Assembly: GCA_019096065.1 (NCBI GenBank)
Contig: JAGUCH010000003.1
Coordinates: 5,394,001 to 5,458,000, forward strand
Direction: 5' to 3'
Source of the DNA: Paracyclopina nana
Taxonomy: Eukaryota > Arthropoda > Copepoda > Cyclopoida > Cyclopettidae
Length of the DNA stretch: 64,000 bases
Under the pieces are notes generated by a model. It worked only from the letters and a program-made list of their open reading frames with translations. It was not told where the DNA came from and ran no database searches. Within the stretch, counting starts at the first letter, position 1, and each line of letters opens with the position of its first letter. Shown piece by piece: positions 25,957 to 57,641 of this stretch. A program made the translations under genes and the position numbers.

Positions 25957-26881
25957 TGATGGGCAATAAGTACATCATGTCTCTGGTGCACGTTATGACC
26001 AGAATAGGACTTGATTGGACCCCTCCAGTGGAACCTGTGGAAACCGTGGAACCCGTGGAGCCACCAGAAGTCCGGAAGGTTGCCCATTCACCGCTACATC
26101 ACTACCTCAAAATCACAAAACCTCCCCTCTTAAAAACACCTTTTCATCTCCTCCAACTCTCTGATTGTTGCTGCTGCTGCTGCTACTACCTATGCGTTGA
26201 GCCTTACCTATGGCAATTCACCTGACCTTGAGTGAAGAAGTTGCTAGCCATTGTGTGGAGGAGTTGCTAGCCGCTATATAGAGAGGACCTGCAGCTGCAT
26301 GATAACGGAGAGAAGCAGATGGAAGCTGATGGAACTTGCTGGAATGCATCGAGTGGAGAAGAAGGAGAAGACTCGGGGAGTTCGATGGGGGACTTCAGAG
26401 AAGCAAGACATGGACCAAGTGCACATGGCCCATTGAGTGAGCTCTGCATTGCTATTGTCCCACTAGAGTTCTCCAAAGTGTGCTGAGGCATGAAGAAGAT
26501 GGCCACAAGAATATTTACTGCAGTACTTATTTCTTTGTATTTGCTGCCATTAATTTGTGTGGTGTTAAAAGCTGAGTGAATAAGACAACCCTGTTGGACT
26601 TTGTTTGACCATAACTTGTATAGAGGTTTCCTGGGCAGTTATGCATCCTAGTCTGAGGCTGTTGAGGCCGTTGAGGACGTGGGTAGGAAGCCCAATCACT
26701 GGTCTACAGCACTGAAGCTTGCCATGTGATGTATCTCGCCAGAGTTGGAGCACTGAGGCTGCGGCTTTGGGTCCAAGGCGGGTAGACATCCGGCCAGCAC
26801 CCAGAGGCTGCGAACGGTACCACGACCATGAAGCCGATGCTAACCATCCTAGGCTTCAGAGGGTGTGACCGTCGCACACCA
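25957..26881 (+). repeat. 5' LTR of the giant element (925 bp)
   Basis: Direct copy of 47379-48303 with differences at 26803 (A/G) and 26822 (A/G). It contains a CTG run (about 26167-26182) and a TATATAGAG box at 26275-26283 that may be the promoter. Confidence 0.92.
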
Positions 26882-26884
26882 TTT

Positions 26885-26908
26885 TGGAGGCCCCGGAGGG
26901 ATTGAAGG
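26885..26908 (+). other. Primer binding site, tRNA-Thr-like
   Basis: TGGAGGCCCCGGAGGGATTG starts 3 bp after the LTR. Its complement ends in CCA, and 5' of that reads TTCAATCC, as expected for a tRNA T-arm. As far as I recall, the acceptor GGGGCCT-CCA fits tRNA-Thr(UGU) of animals. Host tRNAs are needed to confirm this. Confidence 0.6.
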
Positions 26909-28133
26909 CCACTTTCTCTCCTAAAGGTTTGATGACCAAAAGCAATGAAGTCCCGGAAAATGTCTTGGTGTGGATCAGGATTCCTGCTCTGCGGCGCAGG
27001 TTGGGCCGCACGCTGATTGCGATCAGGGTGTGTCTAATACAGTACAAAATCCCGAAGGCTGACGAGCCGATGGGGGTCACTCCGATGGCATTTGGGCCTA
27101 TGTGGTGCGTAGGCTTTAGATTCCCTTAGACCCAAAGTGCGCATCGATGCCGTTGGCGGGTTGGAACTGGCGCACGGGGAGTGCAAGAAGGTACAGGCCG
27201 TGACGTACCACCAGCCCGCTGATGATGTCTTCCATGGACCATTGTTATGATGATGGGCCTACACAAAGTAACAATGACACTGTCTTTCCCGGAGGTGAAT
27301 GCATGCGTGCAGGCTCCGCATGGCATAGCTTGGAGTATGGGTGCCATGGCAGCCGGAAAGCCAGCCAAGGTGCAGGTTGCGACCTGAGCCTCTGTTGCCT
27401 ATCCATTATGGGGCGAGTGAGCGCAAGAGTGGTGCGCCACTAGTGGGTCTCGTCCGTGGGTTTGGCCACACAGATGGAAGATGATGATGTAATCCATGAC
27501 CCCGCTGTGGGTCAACAAACCCCAAATAGGCCACGCATGGAGCCAGCGTGGGAGCCACAAAGGAATATGCGTGTTTGGGGGCCCAAAAAACTGGCTAACC
27601 TTGGACAAGATGCCGAGGGCACAGGGAAGGTTGGCCGGCCCGCAACTCGAGGAGGAGTGGGCAAAATTATTTTTCATTCACTGAGTCGACACTGGTTGGC
27701 GAAGTGGCATACCTTTTTTGCGTAAAAAGTTGATGCACCTTTGTTTCAGAGACCTCAGAAGAACTTAGAAAAAACCTTCCACCTGTAGCACCAGTAGTGC
27801 TAAACCCCAAACCTTTCCCAATAATAATATAATAAGTGAGTGTATCTGTGTGTGTGTGTGTGTGTGTTTTGTCTTGGCCGCTCATAGCCTTGACAAAAAA
27901 TAAATAAACGAGCTTAGCAATTGCAACCTTTTTCTCTGTGTCACTTGACGCGGCGTAGTAATTAGGACAAGCTTCCCTGTGCTTTGAACAGCGTATAGCT
28001 TTTAATTCGGTACTGCCGAATTTAGTACACACAGTAGTGTACTAAGACCAGAATATTGCGTGTGACTCCGTTGCACCCCTAAAAGATAAGAAATACTTCG
28101 TGTGACTCCGTCACGCTTTTTACAAGATAAGAA
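26909..28133 (+). other. Leader region of the giant element
   Basis: 1.2 kb between primer site and gag. It has a (GT)n run at about 27849-27868. Short reading frames are present on both strands, but none is convincing. It probably holds packaging and splice signals. Confidence 0.5.
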
Positions 28134-30701
28134 ATGGCTAATCAGGATTCTAGGATCGCTGGACCTACTCTGGTTGAGGAAGTTACAAAAGTAAAGGATC
28201 GACTGTTAAACCACCTTGGGATTAATGAGACCACTTTTCAAGGGTACCTATCCCAATGCGCTCCAAATGGGAATAGCAGAGTTGAGTTGCAAAACTTTAT
28301 GCCACACGTTGCTTACCCTGAAGCATTAGAGTTTGTCACAGTAACTCAAGCACAAATATCAGCTGTATGGGAGAGGACCCAAATAGTACTTGTCCCTAGG
28401 GAGCCAATTAGACCTTTGGATGACCATATTAAGGCAATCATCGGGACTATGCCCCATAAGGACCCGGTAGGCCAAGTTGTAAATGTGGTTAAGTATATTG
28501 ATGCGCTAGACCCCGTTTCATTGACAAGCACTACATGTGCCTTGTTATGTATTTGTTTTGGTCTGGATGAGTTCCTAACTCGTATTGAGGAAAAGAAAAA
28601 TACGCAGCGGATCCAAGAGGTTGATGGTAGCTTCCTGACTAATTTAACGCCAGGGATGCACGAAATGGTTGCGACACTGATATCAAGGAATTGGCAGAAG
28701 ATATGGACATTTGGAGATGGATTCTCTATTGTAGCGAGGCTTTACGGGTTACAAAGCGATTATTTCCTAAGGGAACCGCTTAACCTGAGGCCACAGGCAA
28801 AAGGTCCGGGCCAGAACGTACGTTTTCCTGATAACGAGACGAGTAATGCCGCACCAGACATGTCTTCGATAGCAAGCCCGCCTGGGACTAACCACCACGA
28901 GCTCACTGAAGGAATTGACCAGGATGGCCAAAATAAGTCTGTTTTGACCTCGACTAAGATGAATCCTCGTGATTTGCATAACTTGACTAATTCAATCACG
29001 CTTCCTCCAATGGAAGTTGTACATAGAATGGTACAAAAGATGTTGTCGGGAGGCCACTTGAATATTCAAGAGTTGAATACAGTAAAAGCTTATTATACGA
29101 AAATGCATGATGCGAGTACGGCAAACAAAATTATTGCCTCCGCGCAAATTACAGCTAAGCATATGGTTGGGGCAAAAGTAGAGTCTATTTTCAGTAAGAA
29201 TTTAGAAAGAACTTTAAGCATAGTAGATGCTGCGACGAAGGAACGAATGGTGCCAGAAACTGACGTCATCTATGATGAGTCTGCTCCAATTTCAGAGAGG
29301 CTGAAGTTAATTAACATTGATGAGATTAAGGATGTGGAATCAGCCAGACGAGTAATCCTTCAGATGGTTGACCCAAACTTATCTTCAGGAAAGAAAATGA
29401 TTGAGATGCAGAAGCTCTTTAGTGTACTTAGCACGAGAGACGAGTTTACTTCTCTCCAAAAGCAAATATTGGCAGAAGGCTACTTAAAGACTCCTGAGAT
29501 AAGTGTGGCCGCTGGAGTATCAGCTGACACTTCTAGAAGCATTTATGATCCGACCACCATGCGAGGTTACATTGCTGTACCTACGAATGGTCATGTTAAG
29601 TATGCAAGCTCACAGTCAATGAAGGAGATTAGGCACAAATACACTAAAAAGTTTGACCTACATAGTTCCTCATTAACTGCTGAGAATATAATGAATTTTC
29701 TGGACTATATGGCAAATGAGGCTGGTAGACAGCATTGGTCTCATGCAGCCTTGTTAACAGCCATGTGTGAGGCTTCATCCCAGAATACCAGTGAGTACTT
29801 TAAGGGGATGGCTGGAGAAGGAAAAGATGGTATGGAATTGCTATGGCAAGATATCTTCAACTACACTCAGTTTGTGCGTAAAGAGGACCCATACTTCCTT
29901 ATACAGGAGATGATCCGGAAGCCTACTGAGTGCTTCACTGCCACACTTAAGTCAATCCTTCGACTACGAATGAAGATACATAGCACAACCATTGGAGATG
30001 GCGGAGATGCTCATGCAGTCTCTGAAGCCATCTCTGATGGTTTTGCACTTCTAAGACGTCATTGGCCTCAGAATTACCAGTCGTTAGTAAACAAATACAA
30101 TGACTACCTTCTGAGAGCAAATATACCTGCTAGGAGTATGCACGCCTACAACATCATGATGAACCTAATTGGCAGTGACCTAGGTACATATGTGCCAAGG
30201 GACCTTGATAGGGCTCATAAAGAGGAGAGGCTACCAATGGTACCCAACATGCGTGCCAAACCTAGGATAGCAATGGTAGAAGCTACTGAAGAAGAGGTGT
30301 TAGATAGTGCTAGCACTATGTCGGCAGCCTCTGGCCATAGTCAACGAAGTGCTAAAATAATAAATGAGCTACAAAGCGAGTTGGCTCGAGCAAATTTTGA
30401 ATTAAGTAGACAAGCTGTTGAAGTAGCTATGATGAAAGCTGAATCGCCATCCGAGAAAATAAACAGGCTGGGAAAAACTTTTAACATAGATACATCTAAG
30501 TTGCCTGAAGGAAACCCACTTCAGACCGGTGGGTGCTTGTTCTGTAACCAATTGCATTACGCTACGCAGTGTTCGAATTACCCGAACACAAATTTGACCT
30601 CAATTAGAAATGATGGCACATTGTGTCCATTGTGTAAAGGATTGCACCTTGAGTTTAGGGGAGAAACGTGTTGGAAGACGCGACCTGCTCGTAAACAATA
30701 A
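28134..30701 (+). CDS. gag: Gag of the giant element, 855 aa
   Basis: Intact ORF with a Lys/Asp/Glu-rich, mostly helical body, as expected of matrix and capsid regions. Near the C terminus are two zinc knuckles. The first is C-x2-C-x3-H-x4-C (CLFCNQLHYATQC) and the second is C-x2-C-x3-H-x7-C (CPLCKGLHLEFRGETC). The second departs from the standard spacing. A helical Gln/Glu-rich stretch precedes them. The stop TAA overlaps the ATG of the next ORF (TAATG). At 855 aa it is longer than typical Ty3/gypsy Gag proteins (300-600 aa). The family was assigned from motifs and position. Confidence 0.8.
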   Translation: MANQDSRIAGPTLVEEVTKVKDRLLNHLGINETTFQGYLSQCAPNGNSRVELQNFMPHVAYPEALEFVTVTQAQISAVWERTQIVLVPREPIRPLDDHIKAIIGTMPHKDPVGQVVNVVKYIDALDPVSLTSTTCALLCICFGLDEFLTRIEEKKNTQRIQEVDGSFLTNLTPGMHEMVATLISRNWQKIWTFGDGFSIVARLYGLQSDYFLREPLNLRPQAKGPGQNVRFPDNETSNAAPDMSSIASPPGTNHHELTEGIDQDGQNKSVLTSTKMNPRDLHNLTNSITLPPMEVVHRMVQKMLSGGHLNIQELNTVKAYYTKMHDASTANKIIASAQITAKHMVGAKVESIFSKNLERTLSIVDAATKERMVPETDVIYDESAPISERLKLINIDEIKDVESARRVILQMVDPNLSSGKKMIEMQKLFSVLSTRDEFTSLQKQILAEGYLKTPEISVAAGVSADTSRSIYDPTTMRGYIAVPTNGHVKYASSQSMKEIRHKYTKKFDLHSSSLTAENIMNFLDYMANEAGRQHWSHAALLTAMCEASSQNTSEYFKGMAGEGKDGMELLWQDIFNYTQFVRKEDPYFLIQEMIRKPTECFTATLKSILRLRMKIHSTTIGDGGDAHAVSEAISDGFALLRRHWPQNYQSLVNKYNDYLLRANIPARSMHAYNIMMNLIGSDLGTYVPRDLDRAHKEERLPMVPNMRAKPRIAMVEATEEEVLDSASTMSAASGHSQRSAKIINELQSELARANFELSRQAVEVAMMKAESPSEKINRLGKTFNIDTSKLPEGNPLQTGGCLFCNQLHYATQCSNYPNTNLTSIRNDGTLCPLCKGLHLEFRGETCWKTRPARKQ

Positions 30702-33700
30702 TGGGACCAAGTACAAAAAATCCCAATAAGAATGATAAAGATAGTTACATCTTGCCTTCGTTTATGAGAGGAGAATGTAACAAAGAAGTAGGACGAGCTT
30801 ACTTTGATTATTTAAAGGAGCAATCTGTAAAAAATGCTGAAATTATGACTCGTGGAAGTGGGGACGAAAAGGCTCTGGTCCTTGCAATAAGGGGTAGACA
30901 AAGTCGGTTTGTTCCTCATCATACTATGACTGTGAGTGAGATTAGCATAATGCTGATCGCGATAACAATATGTCAATATTGCTTATTTGGATGGAATTAT
31001 TGGCCAATTACAGTAATCTGTAGTAGTGCAATAATAGCTTTATGGTACTACTTTGTAAAAGGTAGCACGAATAATGAGCAAAAAACTTGTAGTAATGATG
31101 GTATCGTTACACATCTGGCCTCAGTAAATGCTAATGAAGCAGAGCCAGTAACACACTTTGAACCTTTACCGAATCCAGAACTTGAAGATGACATGCTGAG
31201 TATTTACTCATTAAAGCTACATAATGTTTGTGAAAGGTATTTTATACCAGTGGAGATAACTGGAAAAATACGTTTACATGCTTTATTTGACAGTGGAGCA
31301 ATGGTGCAGATAATATCACGCACCCTTGTAAAACTGATCGAAGACAAAATTGGTTACACTCTGCCTCGGGTTGAGACTAATTATGTAATTAAGAACTTTA
31401 ATGGGGAAGAATTCCCAGGGAATGAAGCTGTCTCTATTCAAGTTGCATTTGGAAATCGTGTTTTAATCAGACAGGCTGTTTTCCTTGTATCTGATTGCGA
31501 TACACTATTGATGATAGGAAATTCGTTATTAGTGGATAATAATGTCCGGATGACTAGTAAAGATGGAAAGCACTTTATGGATTTTCCTGGAAAATCTAAA
31601 CATAAGAAAATTCCACTCTTACTATCAAAAGAGGCTTTCTACCCAGTGGCAATAAATGAAGGGATCACTCTGCTCCCTGGAGAAGAAGTGACCACCATGG
31701 CTAGTTTACCTCATGATTTACCTGTTATTAGTAATGACATTCAAATAGATTCAGACTCTGATGAGGATGATGAACTTGGTCATACTCATCACCAGAAAAA
31801 TGTTTATTCCGGATTGGTGGATAAGTACTTAAACTTTATGCCTAGTAACGAGTACCGCGGAGTGACCTCTGAGGGGGCACTTACTGCAGTCACTCGTAAA
31901 GGTACTTTCCCAGTAAATATTGGGAATAGTACTGAGGATCCCATCTACTTAAATGCACATGCAGTGATTGGGCGAGCTAGAATTGTCAAGAAACAGAAAT
32001 TTAAGAGTACGGTTGCAGCCCATGTGGCTAACATTAGTTTAAAGGCCCTGGAGCATGAAATGGAGTCATGTTACTGCAATTATTTAGATTCGCACATAAT
32101 TGTGCAGTTTACTGATATAAATGGTCTTTCCTTTACTGATATGCATGTTTTCAATGCCTATGAGCCACTAAGGGGAAGTCATAAGCCTTTGATTAGTAGA
32201 AAAGGAAATTACGTTTTTATCTCATCTAACCAAAGTGATGGTTACGAGGAGATAACTGATGTAATAATTAGCAAGTTTATGAAACGAGAAAAATGGGATG
32301 AATTACCGTGGGCTGTTATTGTTCCAGGACATAAACTTTTGTCTGGCGAACAAAAGCGCATTGTAATAAAGATGAATATGATGGTAGATAAACTTAAAGT
32401 AGTATGGCTAAAATATAAGTATATTTGCCCACCATGTATGACCATTGCTTTGTGTCCTATTGAATCCTACCTCACTGGGATGGATAGGGTCATAATAACT
32501 ATGATGATACATGAGTATGAGAATTACCCACTTGCTTATCAAAGAAATGAACTAGATAAGTATTTTGAACTAAATGTTCTTGGAGCTCATGGTATCATGT
32601 TTAAGTTGTCCAACAATGTTGAGTTAATATTCCATGTCCCTAGCGAACATGCAGAGAATGTTGGCTACCTAACCACGCTTATGTACATAATAATCGGTCA
32701 ATTACGGTACCAAAATGTGGCTGACGATGTGTGGATTAGAACACTTATGGATGGTGACGTGCATGTAGGTGACCCACTTTGTATGGCAACCACTGCTGCA
32801 TTGCTAGTGTTATCTGGGTTACAAATGTATCCAGATGACCTTACCAAGGAGGATATAAAGACAAAATTTGGTAAATTTATACCATTTGTACTTGAACCAC
32901 CGGGTTGCTCATGCAAACCTTGCTTGGCAAAGGACATGGGCATCAAAGTACCACTTAAAAGTTTCACTACTATTTATGAAGGTCCTATTGTTGATACCAG
33001 TGTCAGACAAACAGTTCTGAAAAGTCCTTCTGAACTGGACCTTGTATCAGCTAGCCTGGAGCTTTCTAAGGATGAGAGAAATAACCAAAAACTATATGAT
33101 GAGGTTTATAATCTCCTTTTGAAATTTCCAAGTGAATTTGACCCCCTCCGTGTTTTGAATGGGGTGGCAGGTTATACCTTTCCATTAAAACCGGAAACGA
33201 TCTTGAACATGGACTTGGAACATATTCCGGATGAAGTTAGGGAGGACTTTAGGGACCTCTTATTGGAATATAAGACTATCTTCTCAGAAGATCCTAGATC
33301 TTATAGGCTATGGAATGTCGAACCGATGAAGTTCCAGCTAAAGGATGATAAGCCTTTGGTGCCAAAAGTATTCAACATGTCGGAGTATGAAACTACCCAG
33401 GTTGACCGTAAAATAGCTTTAATGCTGTCATCTGGATTAATTGAGATTGTGGATAAGTCACTTAATAGGTACTCGGCTTGCCCGTGTTTCTTGACTTCAA
33501 GGCCAAATGACGAAAAGCTGCCTATGAAGCAACGCAAGCCTCGGCTATTAGTTGACTTAACGTCTTTTAATAAAAATCTGATATTTACGACTTCGGAGCA
33601 CATAGTGCCTCCTATCCCTACCTTACTAGGGATGTTATCTAATTCATGCTTGATGTCATCTTTCGATGTAACATCCGGATATGATAACTTACCTGTGGAC

Positions 33701-34435
33701 TCTGATAGTGCTGATATGTGCTGCTTTGCGGTAACGTCCCCTCGCAGCATATACAGGTCGGTCTTTTTGAAGAGTAAGGCGTGCCTCCAGGGGATCGCAA
33801 TTGCTCCGAGAATGTTCGCAGAGCTCCTCCAACAGGCCCTTAACCCTGAGATATTGCCCTTTACATGTGTATATGTTGACGACTTGGTCGTGGCCTGTAA
33901 GAACCCTGGCAAGCCTAGGCCTGCTACGTTAGATGATTACACACGACATTTAGGTGATTTAAGGAAGTTATTTCAAAGCCTCAAGGACTTAAATGCCCTA
34001 CTACAAATTAAAAAGACTCAATTAGGTGTTAAAGAAGCTACAGTCTTAGGGCACCTAATATCTATTGATGAAAATGGGATTATGACTATGCGAATGCCCG
34101 ATAAATTCAGGTCTGCATTTGATGATTTTCCTATGCCTACTACTAAGAAACAGCTGCAAAAGTTTATTGGAATGACAAACTGGTTAAGCCAGTACTGCCC
34201 CAATATGGCTACATACACAGCACCACTGCTAGATGTGTTACAAACAGCACAAGGAAAAACAGGAAAGTTCACCTTCACTGCTTTCCAAGAAAAATGTTTC
34301 TATAAAGTAATAGATGAGATTAAAACAGGTATGTCACTGGCATTGCCACGTTTTAAAGAAGGTTATTTAGTGGTTGATTCTGGGGTAATAAGTACCTCGG
34401 CATTATTAATGGAGGTAAATGAGGATGTGATTTAA
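30701..34435 (+). CDS. pol: Protease-reverse transcriptase ORF, 1244 aa
   Basis: Residues of about 80-118 form two hydrophobic segments (ISIMLIAITICQYCLFG and PITVICSSAIIALWYYF), unusual for a Pol. The aspartic protease motif LFDSGA is near residue 197. A long region (about 300-850) of no recognised domain follows. It carries Cys pairs (CSCKPC) at about residue 740. The RT core has SFDVTSGYD (first Asp, near 987), YVDD (near 1058) and the LGHLIS thumb motif. The ORF ends 16 residues after a VVDSG motif that matches the first strand of RNase H. The start overlaps the gag stop. Downstream, the integrase ORF begins 11 nt later in another frame. Confidence 0.82.
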   Translation: MGPSTKNPNKNDKDSYILPSFMRGECNKEVGRAYFDYLKEQSVKNAEIMTRGSGDEKALVLAIRGRQSRFVPHHTMTVSEISIMLIAITICQYCLFGWNYWPITVICSSAIIALWYYFVKGSTNNEQKTCSNDGIVTHLASVNANEAEPVTHFEPLPNPELEDDMLSIYSLKLHNVCERYFIPVEITGKIRLHALFDSGAMVQIISRTLVKLIEDKIGYTLPRVETNYVIKNFNGEEFPGNEAVSIQVAFGNRVLIRQAVFLVSDCDTLLMIGNSLLVDNNVRMTSKDGKHFMDFPGKSKHKKIPLLLSKEAFYPVAINEGITLLPGEEVTTMASLPHDLPVISNDIQIDSDSDEDDELGHTHHQKNVYSGLVDKYLNFMPSNEYRGVTSEGALTAVTRKGTFPVNIGNSTEDPIYLNAHAVIGRARIVKKQKFKSTVAAHVANISLKALEHEMESCYCNYLDSHIIVQFTDINGLSFTDMHVFNAYEPLRGSHKPLISRKGNYVFISSNQSDGYEEITDVIISKFMKREKWDELPWAVIVPGHKLLSGEQKRIVIKMNMMVDKLKVVWLKYKYICPPCMTIALCPIESYLTGMDRVIITMMIHEYENYPLAYQRNELDKYFELNVLGAHGIMFKLSNNVELIFHVPSEHAENVGYLTTLMYIIIGQLRYQNVADDVWIRTLMDGDVHVGDPLCMATTAALLVLSGLQMYPDDLTKEDIKTKFGKFIPFVLEPPGCSCKPCLAKDMGIKVPLKSFTTIYEGPIVDTSVRQTVLKSPSELDLVSASLELSKDERNNQKLYDEVYNLLLKFPSEFDPLRVLNGVAGYTFPLKPETILNMDLEHIPDEVREDFRDLLLEYKTIFSEDPRSYRLWNVEPMKFQLKDDKPLVPKVFNMSEYETTQVDRKIALMLSSGLIEIVDKSLNRYSACPCFLTSRPNDEKLPMKQRKPRLLVDLTSFNKNLIFTTSEHIVPPIPTLLGMLSNSCLMSSFDVTSGYDNLPVDSDSADMCCFAVTSPRSIYRSVFLKSKACLQGIAIAPRMFAELLQQALNPEILPFTCVYVDDLVVACKNPGKPRPATLDDYTRHLGDLRKLFQSLKDLNALLQIKKTQLGVKEATVLGHLISIDENGIMTMRMPDKFRSAFDDFPMPTTKKQLQKFIGMTNWLSQYCPNMATYTAPLLDVLQTAQGKTGKFTFTAFQEKCFYKVIDEIKTGMSLALPRFKEGYLVVDSGVISTSALLMEVNEDVI

Positions 34436-34445
34436 GGAAGTAGAC

Positions 34446-38177: not shown

Positions 38178-40387
38178 ACATTCTTAAGTATAGACGAGGT
38201 GGAAGTAAATGTAGTGCCCATACTATATGGGACCACTATCTTTACTTTGTCAGTCCAATATGGGCGCGCCGTTTTACCAATCAAGCGCACCCAAATTATG
38301 TTAATGCAAAATGACTCTTGCGAACTTGCAGTTTTCGCTTGTCGAAAAAGATGAAATGGATACTAACGGGCAATGTACTTTTGCATGCCCGTCAGTAATG
38401 TACAATATTCATAAAGGTAAGGATAAGATGCGGAACAATGCATCGACAGCAAGAAAAACCCTTTACACTATACTTGGTCCATAATGATACCATGACTTGT
38501 AAAGGTATCGGTTTCCCTCCTAATGGTTTGAAAACCAAAAACCAAGAAATAACGAGACATGCACGATCTGCAGTTCGTTAGCAATGTTAAGATAGGTATA
38601 AAAATGATATATGCCATGAACGCTTTGGACTCGAACTTCCTCGAAGGCTTGTTCAATCCAACAACAACACAAACCTCACTTGCTTTAAAATAACTGAAGC
38701 TTGTTTAGGTAATTCTTACAATATTAATAGGACAAATTAACTCGTCCTGTTTCCTGACAAATACCAATACGAATTGAACCTTGCTTAATACTTAAGCGTG
38801 CCTGCCCCTTACTACTATAGAAGGGGGTTAGGCTTACAATATTCCGTATCCAATAAAGTTGAATGCTTTTTACGAAAGCTAAGACGGATACAAATCCTAC
38901 TCGTTCCGTTTTGTGAACATAGGAATATTTCGTTTTTTAATAAAGCTAAGACGCCATTTTACGAAAGTAAAGACCATGGATACAAACTCTACGCATTATG
39001 ATAATATACATAGAGGATAAGGAAATTGTATAACTTCAATCTTTGGGCTTCGTGCAAGTACTGCACTTAGCCCTACCAAGCCACAAATGACAAATGGGCC
39101 TACTGGCCTAGATAAAGGTTGGCTGTGGTATAAATAATAAAATGTTCTGAACGCGCCATGCAAGAGGGAAATTGCAGATGGGCGTGATACCAGAGGGGCA
39201 AAGGCCCCATCTGTATACAGTATTTTTTATGGACAAGTACACTGTGCAAGTGGGGCACAATAAACCTCACAATACGTGAGGGGACTTGTGTTGAACACAG
39301 TATTGGAAAAACCTTGGAACGATATTGAAACTGTTCAGTCATGAAGACGTTAGCAGTTTTCAATTAGTGCTCACCATGGAAAATAAAAATCGTGTGAGCG
39401 AATACAATTATTGTGGGGGCGAATGCCATCCATGATGCCTTGTGGCAGCTCCAGACCCTGAGTAGGATGGAACATGAAAATCAAAAACTGTACAAAAAAT
39501 GGGATTCATTTCCCTAAAAAGGGATTTTGAAATACTAAATACAGGTTTTGTGCCCGGGTGAATAAAAAGCCCAAACTATGGTCTTCTTGCCTCAACAAAA
39601 CGTGGGCGGCCCACTTCTCTATTAGAATGGGCCGTTCCCTTGTGGCAAATAATGAAACACAAAAAAGCCTATATGCTGGTGAAATCATCAGCTTTGGATA
39701 CAACTGGGGTATCTTGGAGGGGAACAAGTGTTTCCCCATAAAATACCACTCGTTTGCCATAGCAATCTATGCGTGCCAAACGAACTTATTTTGATTAAAA
39801 CACCTCTTGGGTTCACTAATACCAAATCCAAAAAAGTGCAAGTTACGCCTTTTTCCTAGCAGTAATGAGGCGTGAACTACATTACAATAAGCCAGTAATA
39901 AAATCCTATTGGTCAGCTGGTGGCACCGCCACCTCTGCATCTTGCAATAGATTCATTACTTCCAAATAAAAAGAAAGTTCGATATACGCCATTTTTCCTT
40001 GTTAAAAAAGGCGTGAGCTACGTTATTTAATGCATTGTTGGTGCCCCTTGGCACCAAAGTTCAAATAAAAATTGAATAAAATTAGCCTAGCTGCTAAATC
40101 TTTTATAGTTAAAGATTCGAAAACATACTTACCTGAATTTTGTGTGACTGCTCACTGCAGTTCCCACAAAATGCAGAAAATTGTGGAGGGGGGAGTATAT
40201 ATACGTAGCCGCAGGAAATGCAGCCTGCGCCCCAAAAATTTCACAAAATTTGAGCTCACTCGCGCTCTGAGAAAGTAGTGTAAACAAAATTTCTAGATAA
40301 AACTGGAAATGGCAAACTGCCACAAAAACTATAAATCTGAACACTAGCACATAAATGGTGCAAAATTTGCTTCATGGATTATTATTA

Positions 40388-40461
40388 GTGCTAACCGAAA
40401 TTAGCTGAAAAGATTGGTGCTGATAACCACAATCTTTTAAATTAATTTCGGTTATTAGCAC
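40388..40461 (+). other. Long stem-loop in the giant element
   Basis: The left arm GTGCTAACCGAAATTAGCTG with AAAAGATTG pairs with the right arm CAATCTTTTAAATTAATTTC with GGTTATTAGCACC. This gives about 28 pairs with a small bulge and a 13-nt loop. The shape suits a microRNA-like precursor or a viral RNA structure. This is sequence complementarity only; no folding energy was computed. Confidence 0.65.
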
Positions 40462-40469
40462 CCGAACTT

Positions 40470-41665
40470 GATGCACGCATCAAGACCGAGCTGGAATGCA
40501 GAGCTATAATAGCTATGCAATTCAGTGATAACAGATAAAAAATAATCTATGAGTCTGTTCAAAATGGCTAGACAAAAAACATTTGAGCAAGATAGACTGA
40601 AATGTGAGTTGCACTGCGCAAGACGCTGAGCCAGCGCTTGTCGAAACAGATACCCGACTCCAAGGGGGGCAAAAAGTTGTTATGGGACAAAAAGATCCAG
40701 AGACGCACCCACACTAGAAAAATCTAGTTTGAACGGCTTCGCTTGGAGATGTAGGATGGTGGCGCCACCATGCGCCTAACCACGAACTAAAAACGTTTTG
40801 CCTGAGGCTAAAACGAACAATGGAGATTGGAACCGCCGGTGCACCTACACAATTCACCTGTGAAGGTTTTTGAACCTACCCAAACTCAAAATGGCCACAC
40901 TCGGCTCGAGTGGTGACTTAAATTCCGGGATTTATGATGCGGATACAATGAATAAAATAAAATGTTGCACAAAAGTCAAGAGAATCAAAATGACTAATGT
41001 TATAATGATACCGCTAATGATCGCCAGATGGACCAACAGATGAAAAGGTTCAAAGTGCACCAAGATTAAGCATATTGTTAAATAAAATAAGTGCTGGAAT
41101 GTGGCTATCTTGCAGTCGCCACATGACTCCCCTCTTTTTGGTGGAGAATTTGAGTTACGCTAAACACAGCACTAGCAAAGTAAGCTATGTCAGCACAAAT
41201 TGTAAACTGACATGTGAGAAAATGAAAAATATGCGTCTTTAAGCCTAATATGGAAAAGAATTATTGTGCCATTGCCTAGTGCTTGAGCTTGCTTTTGCTA
41301 TGCGCAATGACATACAGCCGGCTTTCCAGTCCTGCAGGGATGATACGAATCCCAAGCCACCTTCAAGGCCTAGCTGGAATGCGGGACAATTTCCCGTGCA
41401 TCAAGGCTGAGCCGGAATGTCAAAGGAAAAAATGCTGCTAAATCGGCATTGATAGCCCATTAGCACCAATGCTCGGCCAGTAGAAGCTCGGATATGGTGA
41501 TGCACCAAGCCCTAACTGGAATGCAGGGCTATAGTTAACGCTGTTCTTGAACATTGATGCATCGTTTGCAGTGAAAACATCAAGGCCGAGCTGGAATGCC
41601 TAGTCCTATGAATGGCCATTTGTGGGCATTGCCTATGTGCCTCAAGGCCTAGCTGGAATGCTAGC
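40470..41665 (+). repeat. Dispersed CAAGGCCNAGCTGGAATGC motif
   Basis: Copies near 40473, 41365, 41403, 41506, 41582 and 41644 share CAAG(G/A)CC(G/T)AGCTGGAATGC with a few changes. Spacing is irregular (about 40-900 bp), so it is not a simple tandem array. Confidence 0.6.
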
Positions 41666-41793
41666 ATATTTACAGGCCCGAATCTGTGGATTTGGGCCGC
41701 TACTGATTAATTATGCGTCTAGGGCACCGTACTTGACGCCTGGAACTGGGTATTCGTGGTCCTCTTGGCCATGTAATTAACTGGAATGAATTG

Positions 41794-42592
41794 CTAAACT
41801 CTGTTGGATGATGCTGAGCTATCTACTGAGGTAATCGCGAAATGAATTGCGGCAAACACAGTAGACACAAAAAGTACTATGTACGTGGACTTTATTGTCC
41901 CGTTTGGGAGGCCTCCAGGCGAGGGGGGCAGGCTGGCCTTGGGCCACGTTGGGGCCAGCCCTGGCCGGTGCGGTGGCCTACCGGGAACACGACGATTTCT
42001 GCAAAAGATAAGATGAATATAGTGAAGCTGTGATGGCTTAAGTGAATAAGTTAGACTTACTAGACGACTCCCTCGAGGGGGTCCTCCTCCGCCACAAAAA
42101 GGTGGAGGACCCACGCCGAGACCCTGGGCAGGTCCTGGGGCTCGTCCCAGAGCCGGCTGACGAGCCGATACAGGCCCCTGGGCCTGGCCCGGTGGACCCA
42201 GGCGAGGGCGGGCAGGGCCACCAAATAGTAGGTGGCCGCCCCTGCCACGTTCAGGGCCACGCCCTAGAGGATCTCTTCGGCCTGTAATACGAGAAAAAGT
42301 CGAGCTTTGACTGAATAGATAACGAATAAATGCACTTACGAAGCCCTGAACGGGGCAGGGAGGGCACTCCTCGTGGCCCATGGGGGCTGCGGGCGGGGCC
42401 GCAGGTGGCTGGGGCCACCCCGCCGCGGACTCGGCCGCGGGGGGCGCCCCTACGGGAGCCTCAGTGGCGGGGGCCACTGTTGTGGTTGAAGGATTCTACA
42501 TCCGCAATGAAAAGATACGGTTTTACGAAAGGATTCAACGGATTCGATTCGAAATAAAAACTTACGAACAAACCGTGGAGGAAGCCCGCCAT
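41794..42592 (-). pseudogene. Antisense spliced gene, unknown, frame broken
   Basis: On the minus strand an ATG at 42592 opens MAGFLHGLF. A good GTAAGT donor (42565) and TAG acceptor join it to 42495-42340, a Pro/Ala-rich segment with GHEECPPCP. A second GTAAGT donor and TTACAG acceptor join 42281 onward. That exon encodes a hydrophobic, Trp/Leu-rich segment (ATYYLVALPALAWVH) but has an in-frame TAG at 42266-42264. A third exon may start at about 42000. GC content is far higher than in the neighbouring DNA. The in-frame stop, and a plausible but opposed reading frame at 42485-42643 on the plus strand, make the gene uncertain. No family recognised. Confidence 0.4.
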
Positions 42593-42869
42593 GTTTTGAA
42601 CTTTTTAGTAAACGAGGCGCGCTACCAGAAAAATCCGGTCTGAAATCGGCCGAATTTTGCGTAAAAAAGCCTCTTTTTATTATGCGCCTCTACGTAAAGT
42701 CTGGGAGCGCTGTCAGATGAAGGTAACGGCTTCGCTAATACCTGCTACCCCACTTGAATTCGAATTCTTTATTATATATATATATAATACAAGTACTATA
42801 GTATATACTCGAGTATATTGGAAGCTTTGAGATCAAAATAAAAACAAGACGAGTGCAAATGCAAAAAGC

Positions 42870-42980
42870 CGGCTTTAAAAGGTCTGCGAGGCCTCGAAAA
42901 GTCTGTGAGGCCTCTAAAAGTCTGCGAGGCCTCGAAAAGTTTGCGAGATCTCGAAAAAGTGGAAAAGTCCGCGAAAACTG
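42870..42980 (+). repeat. Tandem repeat, about 20-bp unit
   Basis: Four imperfect copies of AAAGTCTGCGAGGCCTCGA(A/T). The core AGGCCTCGAAAAG is partly palindromic. A TATATATATATA run lies upstream at about 42774-42786. Confidence 0.7.
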
Positions 42981-43108
42981 CGGGAAGTGCGAGTTATAAA
43001 GTAAGAATTTGCACGCGATGAGGAGGACAAAGGGCAAAAAGTTACAGAAAACAAGCTTAAATGCGAAAAGAGAGTGATCTTCGTCTTGCGATAAGTTCGT
43101 GGCGATCC

Positions 43109-44143
43109 TTAGTTGGTATCGTTGGCATCGCTGTTGACGTCTTGGGAAGCCCTAGACCCAGCTGAGTCCTGGTCCTCGTCTTCGACTTGGAGCGGCTCAG
43201 CTTCGTTGGCTTCTTTGTCAGGGATAGATTCCGCTGCCGAGTTCAGGCGACGATTTTCTCGGGCTCGAGCCCGGCGAGATCGCCTCTTCATGGTCTGCCG
43301 CCCATAACCTTCGGCGACAGGTACCTGGAAAAGTGCATGAAAAGAATATTGAGTAACTCATTTGATGCTTATGAATTGATAGGGTCTTACCCAGCCTTTG
43401 GGATTGGGGACCTCGTACAGATGAGCCAAGCCCGACATTACACTGGGGTTCCGGCGCAATGTCCCGTATGGGTCCATGGCAGCCATTGCCATTTGCAGAG
43501 ACTGAATGTCTGGATCCCTCACGATTGGGACGGGCGGTAAAGCTCGAAGGTCCGGGGCACAGCAGTGGAAAACTGCTGTGGGCTCGGTATTGGCCTTGGT
43601 TGGCTGCATCTCCACGGCCTCTCTATTTTCGGCCTCCTCACGAATTGCACGGAACATTGCACGGCCCAGTATCTACGGCACCAGCGAGATACCCAAACGC
43701 ACCCATAAGTCAACATACCGAGCAGGATCTGAAGATAATTATTGACAGATGAGAATTACAGTACCATGGGCAAATGTGGTAGAACTTACCAAAGCCATGC
43801 CGATTGAGGCGCCAAGACCGATCCAACCCATGATCCCATACCGATGGTAGTTGAATATCTCGTCGACCCAGTCCCTCTGGGGGGCGACGGGGCGATAGTT
43901 GTTTGGAACCACCGGCATCAAATCATGGGGATTAAAAACCTCCACTTCGAATGGGTCAACAGGGTCTGGCTCACTGCCAGGCCTTCCCCCCACATCAAGA
44001 ATGTCACCCTCAGGGAGATCGGTTGAAGGGCCTATCGGGCGCATAATCTCAGGATCCACATCGGGTGAATTGGATGTAGCCTCGGTGGGGGCCTTTGTTG
44101 AGCTGCCCTCAGGGGTTAGCGAAATCCAGGCCAACAATACCAT
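43109..44143 (-). pseudogene. Antisense spliced membrane-protein gene, one frame break
   Basis: Exons 44143-43790, 43728-43391, 43324-43109, joined by GTAAGT/CTTCAG and GTAAGA/TTCCAG introns. Exon 1 starts with a likely signal peptide (MVLLAWISL) and has a Pro/Glu-rich ectodomain. A membrane segment spans exons 1-2 (GWIGLGASIGMAL, then ILLGMLTYGCVWV), followed by basic residues. Exon 2 is 338 nt, so the frame that fits exon 3 is reached only after a one-base shift near the GGG run at about 43666. Exon 3 is Arg-rich, then acidic (EDEDQDSAGSRASQD), as in cytoplasmic tails. A type I membrane protein made antisense to the retroelement is unusual. Family unknown. Confidence 0.5.
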
Positions 44144-44334
44144 GTTGAGAAAAAAGCTAAGTCTGGGATATTGCTAGAAAAGTGACCGACTTGGACGAAG
44201 TCCGATGGGAGAATGATTGGCAAACAGGTGAAAGCTGAGAGTTGCAACCGCCTGTTGCACCCTCGCTAAGTTGTACGACCTAGGAAGTGAAATGTCCGTG
44301 CGACTAGATGATGAGCGTGCGCGCATGCGCCCAA

Positions 44335-44342
44335 CTTATAAG
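44335..44342. promoter_or_regulatory. Palindromic CTTATAAG, likely TATA box between divergent genes
   Basis: CTTATAAGGAAGTTGC resembles the CTTATAAAGGAAAGTTAGC upstream of the envelope-like ORF. As a palindrome it could also serve the minus-strand gene starting at 44143. Confidence 0.4.
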
Positions 44343-44457
44343 GAAGTTGCATAAGTCCTGTTACCTTTCATCTAGACAAAAAATGACCTTGGTTTTTTAA
44401 AAGGACAACCCACGCATTTAAATGCCCGAGAGTGTGGGGCATACTTGTGAGGATTCC

Positions 44458-44465
44458 TATAAAAA
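44458..44465 (+). promoter_or_regulatory. TATA box (TATAAAAA) of the 217-aa ORF
   Basis: TATAAAAAGGGCAGTC lies 42 bp upstream of the ATG at 44500. It falls inside the longer reading frame that begins at 44422, which argues for the later start. Confidence 0.5.
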
Positions 44466-44499
44466 GGGCAGTCTACGTTTTTGTAGCAACAGTCTGGAA

Positions 44500-45153
44500 A
44501 TGAGCGACAGCCTGAACAGCCTAGACAACCTGAGAATGTCTTTGATCACTGAGTCCCTTGAAGGAGAATCTGCAATGGCCTCTATGATGGAGACTGATAA
44601 GACTGGAGAATTCAACGAACAAGAAGTTAGGGAGCTCCTCAAGGACGATGAGCCAGTCCTAGACCGAGACATGCCCCCTGTCAACAATGAGAACCAACCT
44701 CAGAATCAAACGATAAGACACCAGGACCAAGAGGAACCCCTCGAGGTCCCATTGGAAAGGGTATCCTCTAGTTTGGGGTACCCATTGCCATTTGAGGATC
44801 TGATTAGGCCTCCCCACATGGAAGGGCTACAGGCCTATATGAGGGAGGCGAGCCGGACGAGAGCAACTATACAGCGGCACTATGATGCAAGCCTGTTGAA
44901 GATAGCTACGAAGGAGGTCATGACTGTTGGAAAGGAGGTGCCTTTTGACCTAACGATTCGAATAAATGGGGAACCTTATGAACGGACCGAGCCTCGTAGG
45001 CCATTGAAGGTGAAAAACTTTGACTGCATTGAGTTGATTATTGAGCCAGTTAATAAGGGTGGGGAGATCCCCGATTTCCTTGTTATATTTCCGATGCTAG
45101 ACAATCTACCAGTCTACAATTTGCCTGACAAGATGGAATATGATGAAAAATGA
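44500..45153 (+). CDS. Unknown accessory protein of the giant element, 217 aa
   Basis: Start chosen at 44500 because a TATA box precedes it; an in-frame ATG at 44422 would add 26 residues over the box. The protein opens MSDSLNSLDNLRMSL, has an acidic N-terminal half and a more structured C-terminal half with LTIRINGEPYER and DCIELIIEP. There is no signal peptide or membrane segment. It sits between the antisense membrane gene and the envelope-like ORF. It could be a regulator or matrix-like protein of the element. Family unknown. Confidence 0.5.
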   Translation: MSDSLNSLDNLRMSLITESLEGESAMASMMETDKTGEFNEQEVRELLKDDEPVLDRDMPPVNNENQPQNQTIRHQDQEEPLEVPLERVSSSLGYPLPFEDLIRPPHMEGLQAYMREASRTRATIQRHYDASLLKIATKEVMTVGKEVPFDLTIRINGEPYERTEPRRPLKVKNFDCIELIIEPVNKGGEIPDFLVIFPMLDNLPVYNLPDKMEYDEK

Positions 45154-45324
45154 AATTACCCTTCGAAGGATTGAATTGTACATATTGATAAAATACTCGG
45201 TTGTGGGCCAATACTCTTAATTTTTTACCATACATGTCAACATGCTATGATAATAAAAAACCAACGGCAAAAAGCGATGAGTGTCTAGACATAGCAAGGT
45301 GGCGTGCCCACACTTGTCTGGGCT

Positions 45325-45330
45325 TATAAA
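45325..45330 (+). promoter_or_regulatory. TATA box of the envelope-like ORF
   Basis: CTTATAAAGGAAAGTTAGC lies 63 bp upstream of the ATG at 45388, a distance that fits a separate internal promoter. The sequence resembles the one at 44335. Confidence 0.45.
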
Positions 45331-45387
45331 GGAAAGTTAGCGGTCTTGGGGCCCATATAGTTTCTGATCAGTATTTGTGCTGGTAAG

Positions 45388-47274
45388 ATGTTCTTTGAAT
45401 TGGTCTTCATGCTCACCCTTCTTGGACCCGGCACTTGGGGCCTATCCAACTACCCGAGTACTCGGTTTGTTCTGGATGAGGCACTTTGCCACTCTGGACA
45501 TGCCCTAGTTCCAGTCAGGGTGGTCCATCATCCTAGAATGGTGAAAAAGGCTATGGTGTTAGATACGAAGGATTACAGTGGCCTTTTACAATCAACAATT
45601 GGCGTTCTGAATAATATGGACACTATGGTAAAGGAAGCTAAGGATAATGAGAAGTTGGTCCATATTGGGAACATGGTGGCAGTTGGCGAAGAGAGCACGC
45701 CAAACACCATCGACAAATCTTGTTCCAAACATCAAGGGTTCGTACCACTTGCCCTTAAAACTCATGAAGACATGGACGTTTTCCTAGAACTATTACGTTA
45801 CACTGCAAAGGAAAGCCCTCTTGCTCCTAAGGTAACTTTATGTGTGAAATTTCGGATTGTCAATGAGGTACCTATGTCCTTGGATGGAAAAACCACATTT
45901 CCCCAAGTTGGGTATGAGAAAAAACCGGACGACCAGATTATTGCAGGTTACCCGTGTATCACGGGGTATTTCACTGTGGGACCAGGACAGAAGACCATGA
46001 CTTCAGTTAAAGCCCATGCACCACACAGTGATGGGAAGGCAACAATGTGTGTCCAAAATGACTTTGTCATCACCCATAAGGACTTTGTCAAATCTGAATT
46101 GTCTGGAAGGAAAAGTTTCCTCGAAAAGGCCTACAATGCCGTCATGGCCTTAGCAGAATCAGGTAAATCGACCAAATTCACTGATGCTATGCTAGCGAAT
46201 ACCACTCCATTAAGAGTTCCACCGAAAGTCTCTCTGGCCTTTCGATTATTGAAAAGTTTTAGCAAGGTATTTTTGAAGTCTGGATTACTACCAAATGACC
46301 TGCAGCAAGTATTGTCATACGCTGACACTGTTGTGCAATTTGCCAGAAAGTTTGGACAAGCTGGCACACGTTTCAGTATACCCACTTTGGCGCATAATAG
46401 TGACAGGAATGCTGCCACTATTACGAATGTGTATGAGCCTTTGGCGAACACTGAGGGTAGTGGAGATTTTGTTACCCAGGGTATAGTTGGGTATAAAGAA
46501 ATGGACCCTACCCCTGAGGTCACATATCATATTGTGTCACGAAGCAAAAATGGACTTTTGTTGCGTGATAGATATTTGACTCGCCGAAATGATTTAGTGT
46601 TTGTGTCTCGGGAAATACCCACCTATAGTGATTGCTTTGTCCATGACCATAATTTAACCGTGTGTGAAAATAAGGACTTTGACTTGACAGAAGGAGTCCA
46701 ACACTGTGCTAAAGTACTGTTAGGGCTGTCTCTGGGTGAACCATTTGACGCCTGTGATTTAGAACCACTTAAGACTAACACGCTCACCGATGTGGGATGT
46801 GCGAATTATAAAGGGTTCTTAAACTTGGTCTCAAGTGCAATGATTAATAGGACCTGTTTAAATGACTTCAAGAACTCGATGGTATTGGAACCGGGATCTT
46901 ACCAGATCCTTAGCAACTGTAAGGTTTCCCTTGGAACTCAAAGTACTGGATACGAGGACTCTCCTTGGGAAAGTGATATGGTAAAGTTCTTTACAAAATT
47001 TCCTGAAGATAAAATTGGAGGTTTATTCAATAATTGGGAAATAATCCTGACGGTGAGCCTATTGTCTGCGGCACTGGGATTCACGTGTATGGGCATATTG
47101 ATTTGGAAAAGGCGGCGAGTATGCAGCCGATGCTATGATGATGGAGGCTATGTGAGACCTAATATGTCTCGCTCACGGCTCCGTTACAATAGAGGAGATC
47201 GCAAGAAAGATGCTGACCAAAATCAGCGCCTTACTGTGCGAATGAGTGGCCTGGGAGGCGCGACGTTAGTATAA
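45388..47274 (+). CDS. env: Envelope-like glycoprotein of the giant element, 628 aa
   Basis: Signal peptide at the N terminus (FFELVFMLTLLGPGTW), many Cys and N-glycosylation sites (for example NRT near residue 490) in the ectodomain, and one C-terminal membrane segment (ILTVSLLSAALGFTCMGILIW, about 553-573). The segment is followed by Arg/Lys and Cys and a basic tail of about 50 residues. No furin-like cluster or fusion peptide could be recognised. The plan is that of a type I viral glycoprotein. Its position just before the 3' LTR fits env, but the family is unknown to me. I could not match it to the gypsy, chuvirus or baculovirus F glycoproteins by eye. Confidence 0.6.
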   Translation: MFFELVFMLTLLGPGTWGLSNYPSTRFVLDEALCHSGHALVPVRVVHHPRMVKKAMVLDTKDYSGLLQSTIGVLNNMDTMVKEAKDNEKLVHIGNMVAVGEESTPNTIDKSCSKHQGFVPLALKTHEDMDVFLELLRYTAKESPLAPKVTLCVKFRIVNEVPMSLDGKTTFPQVGYEKKPDDQIIAGYPCITGYFTVGPGQKTMTSVKAHAPHSDGKATMCVQNDFVITHKDFVKSELSGRKSFLEKAYNAVMALAESGKSTKFTDAMLANTTPLRVPPKVSLAFRLLKSFSKVFLKSGLLPNDLQQVLSYADTVVQFARKFGQAGTRFSIPTLAHNSDRNAATITNVYEPLANTEGSGDFVTQGIVGYKEMDPTPEVTYHIVSRSKNGLLLRDRYLTRRNDLVFVSREIPTYSDCFVHDHNLTVCENKDFDLTEGVQHCAKVLLGLSLGEPFDACDLEPLKTNTLTDVGCANYKGFLNLVSSAMINRTCLNDFKNSMVLEPGSYQILSNCKVSLGTQSTGYEDSPWESDMVKFFTKFPEDKIGGLFNNWEIILTVSLLSAALGFTCMGILIWKRRRVCSRCYDDGGYVRPNMSRSRLRYNRGDRKKDADQNQRLTVRMSGLGGATLV

Positions 47275-47360
47275 TAACTGTATCACCCTTAATGTGATGT
47301 AAGCGATCAATGACACCTTTTTTATATTTCTAGAGCTTAAGAAATATTTCAAAAGCTGAA

Positions 47361-47378
47361 AAAGTTAGGGCCGGGGAA
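47361..47378 (+). other. Polypurine tract of the giant element
   Basis: AAAGTTAGGGCCGGGGAA directly precedes the TGATGGGC start of the 3' LTR. It is not perfectly purine (TT and CC interrupt), but its GGGGAA end is typical for plus-strand priming. Confidence 0.5.
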
Positions 47379-48303
47379 TGATGGGCAATAAGTACATCAT
47401 GTCTCTGGTGCACGTTATGACCAGAATAGGACTTGATTGGACCCCTCCAGTGGAACCTGTGGAAACCGTGGAACCCGTGGAGCCACCAGAAGTCCGGAAG
47501 GTTGCCCATTCACCGCTACATCACTACCTCAAAATCACAAAACCTCCCCTCTTAAAAACACCTTTTCATCTCCTCCAACTCTCTGATTGTTGCTGCTGCT
47601 GCTGCTACTACCTATGCGTTGAGCCTTACCTATGGCAATTCACCTGACCTTGAGTGAAGAAGTTGCTAGCCATTGTGTGGAGGAGTTGCTAGCCGCTATA
47701 TAGAGAGGACCTGCAGCTGCATGATAACGGAGAGAAGCAGATGGAAGCTGATGGAACTTGCTGGAATGCATCGAGTGGAGAAGAAGGAGAAGACTCGGGG
47801 AGTTCGATGGGGGACTTCAGAGAAGCAAGACATGGACCAAGTGCACATGGCCCATTGAGTGAGCTCTGCATTGCTATTGTCCCACTAGAGTTCTCCAAAG
47901 TGTGCTGAGGCATGAAGAAGATGGCCACAAGAATATTTACTGCAGTACTTATTTCTTTGTATTTGCTGCCATTAATTTGTGTGGTGTTAAAAGCTGAGTG
48001 AATAAGACAACCCTGTTGGACTTTGTTTGACCATAACTTGTATAGAGGTTTCCTGGGCAGTTATGCATCCTAGTCTGAGGCTGTTGAGGCCGTTGAGGAC
48101 GTGGGTAGGAAGCCCAATCACTGGTCTACAGCACTGAAGCTTGCCATGTGATGTATCTCGCCAGAGTTGGAGCACTGAGGCTGCGGCTTTGGGTCCAAGG
48201 CGGGTAGACATCCGGCCAGCACCCGGAGGCTGCGAACGGTACCGCGACCATGAAGCCGATGCTAACCATCCTAGGCTTCAGAGGGTGTGACCGTCGCACA
48301 CCA
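47379..48303 (+). repeat. 3' LTR of the giant element (925 bp)
   Basis: Copy of 25957-26881 at constant offset 21422, differing at 48225 and 48244. It is followed by the TAAC target duplication. Confidence 0.92.
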
Positions 48304-48307
48304 TAAC

Positions 48308-54864: not shown

Positions 54865-55147
54865 TTTATAAACACTTTATGAATTCCTTTTGCTAGGAGG
54901 TAGTTGGTTATTAACTCAGACTGCAAGAGAGAAGGTAAACGGTTATTATACGCTTGTTTGTCTTGTTAGTGTTTGCGCCCGAATGTCATGGTTTATATAG
55001 CATGAGCATGTGTTAATAATGCAGTTATGATACATATGTGATATGAAATATGGCATGAATGTGGCATAAATGGTGTGCACCCCCCCAAACTTTGTCATGA
55101 GGGAGCAATATTGGTGCGTATTATAGTCTTTTTACACTTGGGTTGTA
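54865..55147. other. Spacer between env and pol
   Basis: No gene is seen. The region is AT-rich and probably contains the splice acceptor or promoter for env. Confidence 0.4.
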
Positions 55148-57508: not shown

Positions 57509-57641
57509 GATGACTCTTTCCTTGCGATCTTGGACTTGGGAAAGAACCCCCCCAACAGCCCTGTTTTCTTGAAGAAATCGGTGTCCAGGATGAAAGGGTT
57601 AGGCGAAGAGAAGTCCGGATAGGCCAGTACCGGCGCAGAGG

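Follow-up and report, generated by a model that had tools for sequence, protein, structure and literature searches.

Long terminal repeat (LTR) retroelements are usually near 10 kb in length (available text of PMC6431247). The stretch of DNA analysed here, 64,000 nt from the copepod Paracyclopina nana (assembly GCA_019096065.1, contig JAGUCH010000003.1, positions 5,394,001–5,458,000 of the forward strand; hereafter the window), contains one of 22,347 bp, and the question raised by this locus is what such an element carries and how it is organised. A preliminary description had called it a giant, recently inserted element with an unusual gene layout. Both points are upheld: in 12 of 13 pairs examined in its family, the LTRs differ by 0–2 bases and have matching target-site duplications (TSDs), and the layout includes two split antisense genes between pol and ORF4, which the description had missed. 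The window element is very probably a defective, recent copy of a giant (about 23 kb), ambisense Ty3-type LTR element that bears an envelope-like (env) gene, and in which antisense orientation would preserve introns. The novel part is the presence of ambisense split accessory genes on a Ty3-like LTR element. The family of the window element is called F1 below, and two related families F2 and F3.

Antisense genes

The two minus-strand genes, A and B, were compared in an alignment of 20 copies (L031–L050, the best 20 of 41 matches, window copy included). Five introns are predicted, two in gene A and three in gene B, with lengths of 61–84 bases, and each has GT..AG borders in 20/20 copies.

Gene A encodes a predicted membrane protein of about 300 amino acids (aa) with one clear membrane helix. 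Exon 1 (43790–44143) holds the start codon, a Pro-rich region and the first half of the helix, and intron 1 (43729–43789) falls within the helix. These are followed by exon 2 (43391–43728), where the frame of the window copy is broken by a small length change, intron 2 (43325–43390), and exon 3 with the stop codon (43109–43324). An AATAAA at 42768–42773 is the likely poly(A) signal; an AATAAA is present within 43000–42650 in 20/20 copies.

Gene B has a predicted product of about 128 aa. It begins with exon 1, containing the start codon (42566–42592), and continues through intron 1 (42496–42565), a Pro/Ala-rich exon 2 of 52 codons that shows little constraint (42340–42495), intron 2 (42264–42339) and exon 3 of 67 codons (42061–42263). 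The last carries a weakly hydrophobic segment that is below the helix threshold in F1. Intron 3 (41999–42060) has a donor overlapping the stop codon, and a likely poly(A) signal, AATAAA, lies at 41891–41896 and in the same region of 20/20 copies. The overlap of stop codon and splice donor (TAGTAAGT), which places the intron exactly at the stop, is seen in F1 (42055–42062, minus strand) and at the equivalent places of F2 and F3 (L061, L070). The acceptor of intron 2 is CTCTAG in F1 and TTTTCTAG in F3. Readthrough of an in-frame UAG in gene B was considered and rejected, because F3 uses the TAG as a plain splice acceptor, and so it is most simply an acceptor in F1 and F2 too.

Purifying selection on these frames was assessed from the ratio of non-synonymous to synonymous divergence (pN/pS) in a six-frame scan, which listed only intervals with a ratio below 0.45 or with very few stop codons. 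For gene A the values were 0.18–0.51 in exon 1 intervals, 0.11–0.35 in exon 2 and 0.21 in exon 3, while gene B exon 3 gave 0.19–0.25 in overlapping intervals. Most of the exons are under purifying selection by this measure. Some of the remaining frames in these stretches likewise gave ratios under 0.45, mostly with more stop codons. The standard three-exon model of gene A was recovered by script in 9/20 copies (L032, L035, L038–L040, L042, L043, L045 and L046), the remaining copies yielding different paths. The antisense open reading frames (ORFs) and exons of F1 and F2 match no Pfam family.

Synonymous divergence among copies is higher in the gene A region (43100–44143; pS about 0.26–0.37) than in ORF4 (about 0.12–0.26), hinting at recombination between element lineages or at fast change.

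The end of gene B is separated from the end of pol by a spacer of about 3.7 kb (38178–41870). No conserved frame was found in it, either over 40300–41950 in the 20 copies or over 38178–40100 in one other copy, which is 77–94% identical in pieces.

Related families

Both antisense genes are also found in F2 and F3, families with a pol identity of about 51–53%. A copy of F2 (C4:9027721–9052449; 24,729 bp) has identical 709 bp LTRs, the TSD GCTT and the same primer type as F1. Both antisense genes are present, the env-like ORF shows 42% identity to that of F1, and ORF4 41–42%. F3 is represented by seven pol places and seven gene-B places, which form one-to-one pairs. One F3 copy was read in pieces; it has a pol with RNase H, 51% identical to that of F1, and, antisense to it, gene B and a gene A-like gene. 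It also carries a partial env relative that is invisible to plain BLAST and was detected by hhalign (probability 94.3%, E-value 9.7e-8). The intron of gene A lies inside the hydrophobic helix in all three families, the helix being computed in F1 and the position in F2 and F3 judged by eye. Exon 3 of gene B is 60–72% identical to F1 in F2 and 43–44% in F3, and is free of stop codons except at two F2 places.

Gene B and pol are closely associated across the genome. Of 79 gene-B places, 77 are situated 5.5–14 kb downstream of an opposite-strand pol of this clade, none is so placed relative to a same-strand pol, and two are unpaired. This count covers 79 of 80 gene-B matches (one split match excluded) and 89 of 104 pol matches (15 fragments excluded); one excluded pol fragment is 8 kb from the nearest listed place, and the pol search scored 104 of 304 candidates. 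Of the pol places, twelve lack a gene-B partner. Five of these belong to a group at 51% identity, two, the pol frames of which are 2,465 aa long, are at 25%, and five fall outside both.

With at least three families sharing two intron-bearing minus-strand genes and the position of the helix intron, these elements probably represent an undescribed, deep clade of giant, env-bearing, Ty3-like elements that are truly ambisense.

Element structure and copies

The window element is bounded by two 925 bp LTRs in the plus orientation (25957–26881 and 47379–48303), each of the form TG...CA, with a TAAC duplication on both outer sides (25953–25956 and 48304–48307). There are 2 mismatches between the LTRs, and the internal region is 20,497 bp. 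The preliminary description had given the same LTR length, duplication and number of differences, with 20.5 kb of internal DNA, and was correct on each. A primer-binding site (PBS; 26885–26903, plus strand) is complementary at 18/19 positions to the 3′ end of tRNA-Thr(AGT) plus CCA, the tRNA-Thr genes used for comparison being loci L065 and L066. The genome contains 83 places that match a 16-mer of the PBS with at most one mismatch; eight are of the form found in the tRNA genes, and three of the eight are confirmed tRNA-Thr. A polypurine-like tract, recognised by eye, precedes the 3′ LTR (47367–47378, plus strand), and ends CCGGGGAA in 12/12 resolved LTR pairs. Besides the LTRs, no direct repeats of at least 60 bp were found within 25000–49500. 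The paired TG..CA LTRs, short TSDs, multiple insertions, tRNA PBS and purine tract are those of an LTR retroelement.

The genome (91.95 Mb in 10 contigs, with the window in contig C3) was searched with the LTR, as the preliminary description had proposed, and further full-length copies were found at different flanking sites. The search scored 40 LTRs of 127 candidates, and 30 loci were fetched. Twenty-six of these form 13 pairs; the other four (L015, L016, L019 and L028) have no partner among the fetched loci. Matching 4 bp TSDs flank 12/13 pairs, each TSD different from the others. The possibility that the two LTRs come from different elements, raised in the preliminary description, did not hold. 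In the 12 resolved pairs, the LTRs have no mismatches in nine cases, one in one case and two in two cases. The thirteenth pair (L003/L004, C4:881410–907618) includes an LTR with internal sequence on either side, apparently tandem F1 elements sharing an LTR, which is a sign of LTR–LTR recombination.

The 12 resolved F1 copies comprise the window copy (22,347 bp), nine simple copies of 22,955–23,564 bp, and two of 29,013 and 29,993 bp. The last two (C1:2620487–2649499 and C2:16519080–16549072) are about 6–7 kb longer than the others, presumably through later inserts. The size of the element is largely due to the length of pol (up to 2,669 aa), the spacer of about 3.7 kb and the two antisense split genes.

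Gag and pol

The first plus-strand ORF (28131–30701; 856 aa) is gag-like, with C-terminal cysteine/histidine knuckles recognised by eye; it has no Pfam family at an E-value of 5 or better and no relative in the PDB. Its stop codon overlaps the start codon of pol as TAATG (30699–30703), an arrangement that suggests termination–reinitiation.

In the window, pol is in two parts. The first (30695–34435, plus strand) contains two hydrophobic segments, an aspartic protease, reverse transcriptase (RT) and the start of RNase H, and the frame ends there; the second (34431–38177, plus strand) contains the integrase and a long C-terminal tail. In other copies they are one frame, of 2,646–2,669 aa in 12/38 scored pol matches (of 414 candidates), and the interpretation of the two parts as separate genes (ORF2 and ORF3) was rejected. 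The main gag, RT, integrase and envelope-like ORFs had been described as open. This holds for gag and the env-like ORF5, but the RT and integrase ORFs are the halves of a broken pol. The break is a net loss of 530 bp compared with copy L062 (34427–34440): between the blocks matching L062, which end at 34427 and resume at 34440, the window copy has 12 bases and L062 has 542, so that most of RNase H is gone and the frame is shifted. An absence of RNase H from the whole family was also rejected, as L062 carries it.

The RT matches RVT_1 (E-value 3.5e-13), with YVDD seen by eye. The protease is matched by weak models only (Ty3-type protease model, E-value 0.0047), and the integrase core match (E-value 1.8e-7) is just under the curated cut-off, with the HHCC and DDE residues seen by eye. 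RT, RNase H and integrase are in one frame in L062, with the weak protease upstream, giving the Ty3 order of domains except in the window copy. Among 12 solved sequences the RT is nearest to Ty3 (E-value 3.4e-17), and the Ty3-type placement rests on these solved references; a collection of 5.8 billion proteins yielded five RT relatives, at 23–26% identity.

Near the beginning of pol, the two hydrophobic segments (30929–31057, residues 79–121) precede the protease and, if real, would give an unusual membrane-anchored N-terminus. ARAGORN called a tRNA-Ser within the pol tail (37679–37777, minus strand), probably by chance.

ORF4 and the env-like ORF5

ORF4 (44422–45153, plus strand) is 243 aa in the window copy, and the part present there has no membrane segment. 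It is truncated by a deletion of about 650 bp at 45143–45144 relative to L052–L060; all nine of these other env loci have about 650 bp extra after 45143. The ORF is 455–458 aa in 13/20 aligned copies, many of which are cut by the end of the locus, and is shorter or broken in some others. Its pN/pS is 0.04–0.23 in the six-frame scan of the 20 copies. With the pol deletion, the truncated ORF4 and gene A out of frame, the window copy is a defective member of F1.

ORF5 (45361–47274, plus strand) lies close to the 3′ LTR and has the anatomy of an env-like type I membrane protein, with a hydrophobic N-terminus and one C-terminal helix. There are 71 matching places in the genome; in 36 of them, identity is at least 91% and residues 1–637 are covered, and 34/36 are free of stop codons. 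ORF4 and the window env have no Pfam family at an E-value of 5 or better, and the F2 env has one insignificant model; a Pfam scan at E-values up to 5 gave two matches, with E-values of 0.25 and 1, that fall well short of the cut-off. No homologue of env or ORF4 was present in the collection of 5.8 billion proteins. The best match of an env profile to the PDB (E-value 0.023) was an RNA polymerase subunit over 60 positions, and is unrelated.

Putative promoters

The region between gene A and ORF4 (44144–44421) is divergent and contains a palindromic CTTATAAG usable on either strand, 87 bp ahead of ORF4 and 199 bp ahead of gene A. A TTATAA is found ahead of ORF4 in 18/20 copies, two of these at a much shorter distance. 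In 8/10 copies read, a TATA-like box lies 63–64 bp upstream of the env ATG (64 bp in the window); the start-codon pattern was not matched in the other two. F2 likewise has TTATAA upstream of its env ORF.

Proposed expression and replication

Replication through RNA would be expected to strip an element of its introns. Here the orientation of the genes may explain their retention. Genomic RNA would be driven by the LTR, its reverse transcription primed by tRNA-Thr, and the product integrated. Internal promoters would serve the antisense genes, that of gene A lying in the divergent region in common with ORF4. In the sense genomic RNA, the introns of the antisense genes would be unseen by the spliceosome and kept; as their splice signals are on the opposite strand, they should survive reverse transcription. 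The membrane proteins would act in particle assembly, spread or host evasion. The window copy, without most of RNase H, may have been mobilised in trans, or damaged at or after its last insertion.

The clade appears to retain at least five introns by antisense placement, in elements packing about 23–25 kb. If true, orientation is what makes split and independently regulated genes, such as a DNA virus has, compatible with replication through RNA. These elements would also offer a natural test of the maximum genome size of a retroelement, of the acquisition of accessory membrane genes and of the feasibility of an ambisense programme. Since dozens of very similar copies are present in the genome, it should be possible to measure transcription and insertion polymorphism directly.

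Evidence against the ambisense interpretation, and alternatives

Several observations weigh against an env-bearing element with two functional antisense genes. The script did not recover the standard gene A model in 11/20 copies, including that of the window, and at least the window copy and L033 look broken. Gene A of F1 aligns only weakly with that of F2 outside the helix. Exon 2 of gene B has a pN/pS of 0.63 in the one interval mostly inside the exon, with a stop codon in L038 and an altered frame in L035. A related group of five pol places, 51% identical to F3 (C6:1150346, C2:1043727, C8:5340622, C7:5635759 and C3:820882), has no detected gene B, and no relative of ORF4 was recognised in the F3 pieces read. 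The putative promoters are short motifs; the ORF4 box is missing in 2/20 copies, and the patterns used detected no such box within 260 bp before the F2 antisense genes. No relationship of env to a known fusion protein was found with Pfam, a PDB profile or the protein database, and a single-sequence fold of the env-like protein was uninformative (predicted local distance difference test score, pLDDT, 32). As no homologue was found, the env label is anatomical, resting on the N-terminal hydrophobic segment and the C-terminal helix.

Four other explanations were weighed. The antisense genes could be host genes that were captured with their introns and are now used by the element. Their intron–exon structure and poly(A) signals are host-like, and carriage of introns would be feasible only in antisense. 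This origin is possible but unlikely, given that gene B exon 3 is confined almost entirely to the neighbourhood of this clade's pols (77/79 places in this genome) and that the antisense genes have no Pfam family.

Another explanation would make the antisense genes, ORF4 and env the remnants of a DNA virus that fused with a Ty3 element, the result now being a virus with separate promoters. Scans that included viral contigs found no similarity to any DNA virus protein, the antisense proteins being compared with Pfam only. We regard such a fusion as improbable, even though separate divergent genes that have TATA-like boxes, poly(A) signals and no relatives among the known proteins searched are what it would leave.

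It is more doubtful still that the antisense frames are not genes at all, but chance frames of a spacer or part of an antisense RNA without coding function. Antisense transcripts, some of them noncoding, are described for plant elements and micropia in the available text of PMC7264820, gene A is unconfirmed in ten copies besides that of the window, where it is broken, and gene B exon 2 is little constrained. Such an account fits poorly with pN/pS values of 0.11–0.35 over most gene A exon intervals and 0.19–0.25 around gene B exon 3, five introns bordered by GT..AG in every aligned copy, the retention of gene B exon 3 in F2 and F3, or the same helix intron in three families.

That the block from pol to env (38–47 kb) is a separate element nested in an ordinary LTR element, inflating its size, is scarcely credible: sequence of both orientations and separate poly(A) signals are found in the block, and its antisense part is more divergent among copies than the LTRs (79–89% versus 97% identity), but it is at the same position in dozens of copies, the examined pairs are at different target sites, F2 and F3 share the antisense genes, and the LTRs are the sole direct repeat of at least 60 bp found within 25000–49500. 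Nesting as a recent event in F1 is refuted; an ancient capture, before the split of F1, F2 and F3, is possible and compatible with the preferred reading of a giant ambisense Ty3-type element.

Comparison with known elements

Burro, a giant gypsy-like element of planarians, resembles F1 in being a giant Ty3-like LTR element of an invertebrate with env-like sequence, and is present in thousands of copies. According to the available text, its gag, env and pol, in this order, are read in a single frame as one huge ORF1, which measures 4,873 aa, and 5,140 aa in another, related planarian (PMC6431247). This single giant gag-env-pol ORF differs from F1, which has separate gag, pol, ORF4 and env as well as the two antisense split genes.

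The plant elements Retand, Grande and RIRE2 share with F1 a long region between pol and the 3′ LTR with conserved antisense ORFs, and in Grande the transcription of gene23 is driven by its own promoter (available texts of PMC7264820 and PMC11963269). The antisense ORFs of Retand mostly encode a TRP28 domain, and introns are not mentioned in the main texts of these sources (PMC7264820, PMC11963269). The Pfam scan gave no TRP28 (PF04195) match in the antisense ORFs or exons of F1 and F2, and F1 differs from the plant elements in its five predicted introns, membrane protein, ORF4 and env.

A spliced antisense gene within a reverse-transcribing element is known from the deltaretrovirus HTLV-1 (human T-cell leukaemia virus type 1). 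In the part of PMC10186651 available, the 3′ LTR drives expression of this gene, hbz, the product of which is a basic leucine zipper (bZIP) protein, whereas the antisense genes of F1 are internal, two in number and have their own poly(A) signals. LTR elements of bdelloid rotifers are also from an invertebrate and have an added ORF3 of env or enzyme type; the available text of that study uses 'antisense' only of small RNA, and mentions no antisense gene (PMC5408684).

A giant LTR element that has an env-like gene next to two intron-bearing antisense genes was not found in the available texts on Burro, Ogre, plant, deltaretrovirus or rotifer elements. Nor was the layout found described in the literature searched, a search that lay outside subscription journals, Repbase and preprints.

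Other features of the window

A second retroelement is present on the minus strand at 53599–61097, with a gag-like ORF containing a zinc knuckle, RT, integrase and a fusion glycoprotein ORF. The last matches the Monjiviricetes family PF24664 (E-value 7.5e-30), and the envelope gene of this element is apparently related to those of chuvirus-like viruses. Two adjacent arrays of a 15-base repeat occupy 11279–11799; their units are seemingly mutual reverse complements, so that together they make a long inverted repeat. A complex tandem repeat array, with periods of about 23 to 234, is found at 50222–50946.

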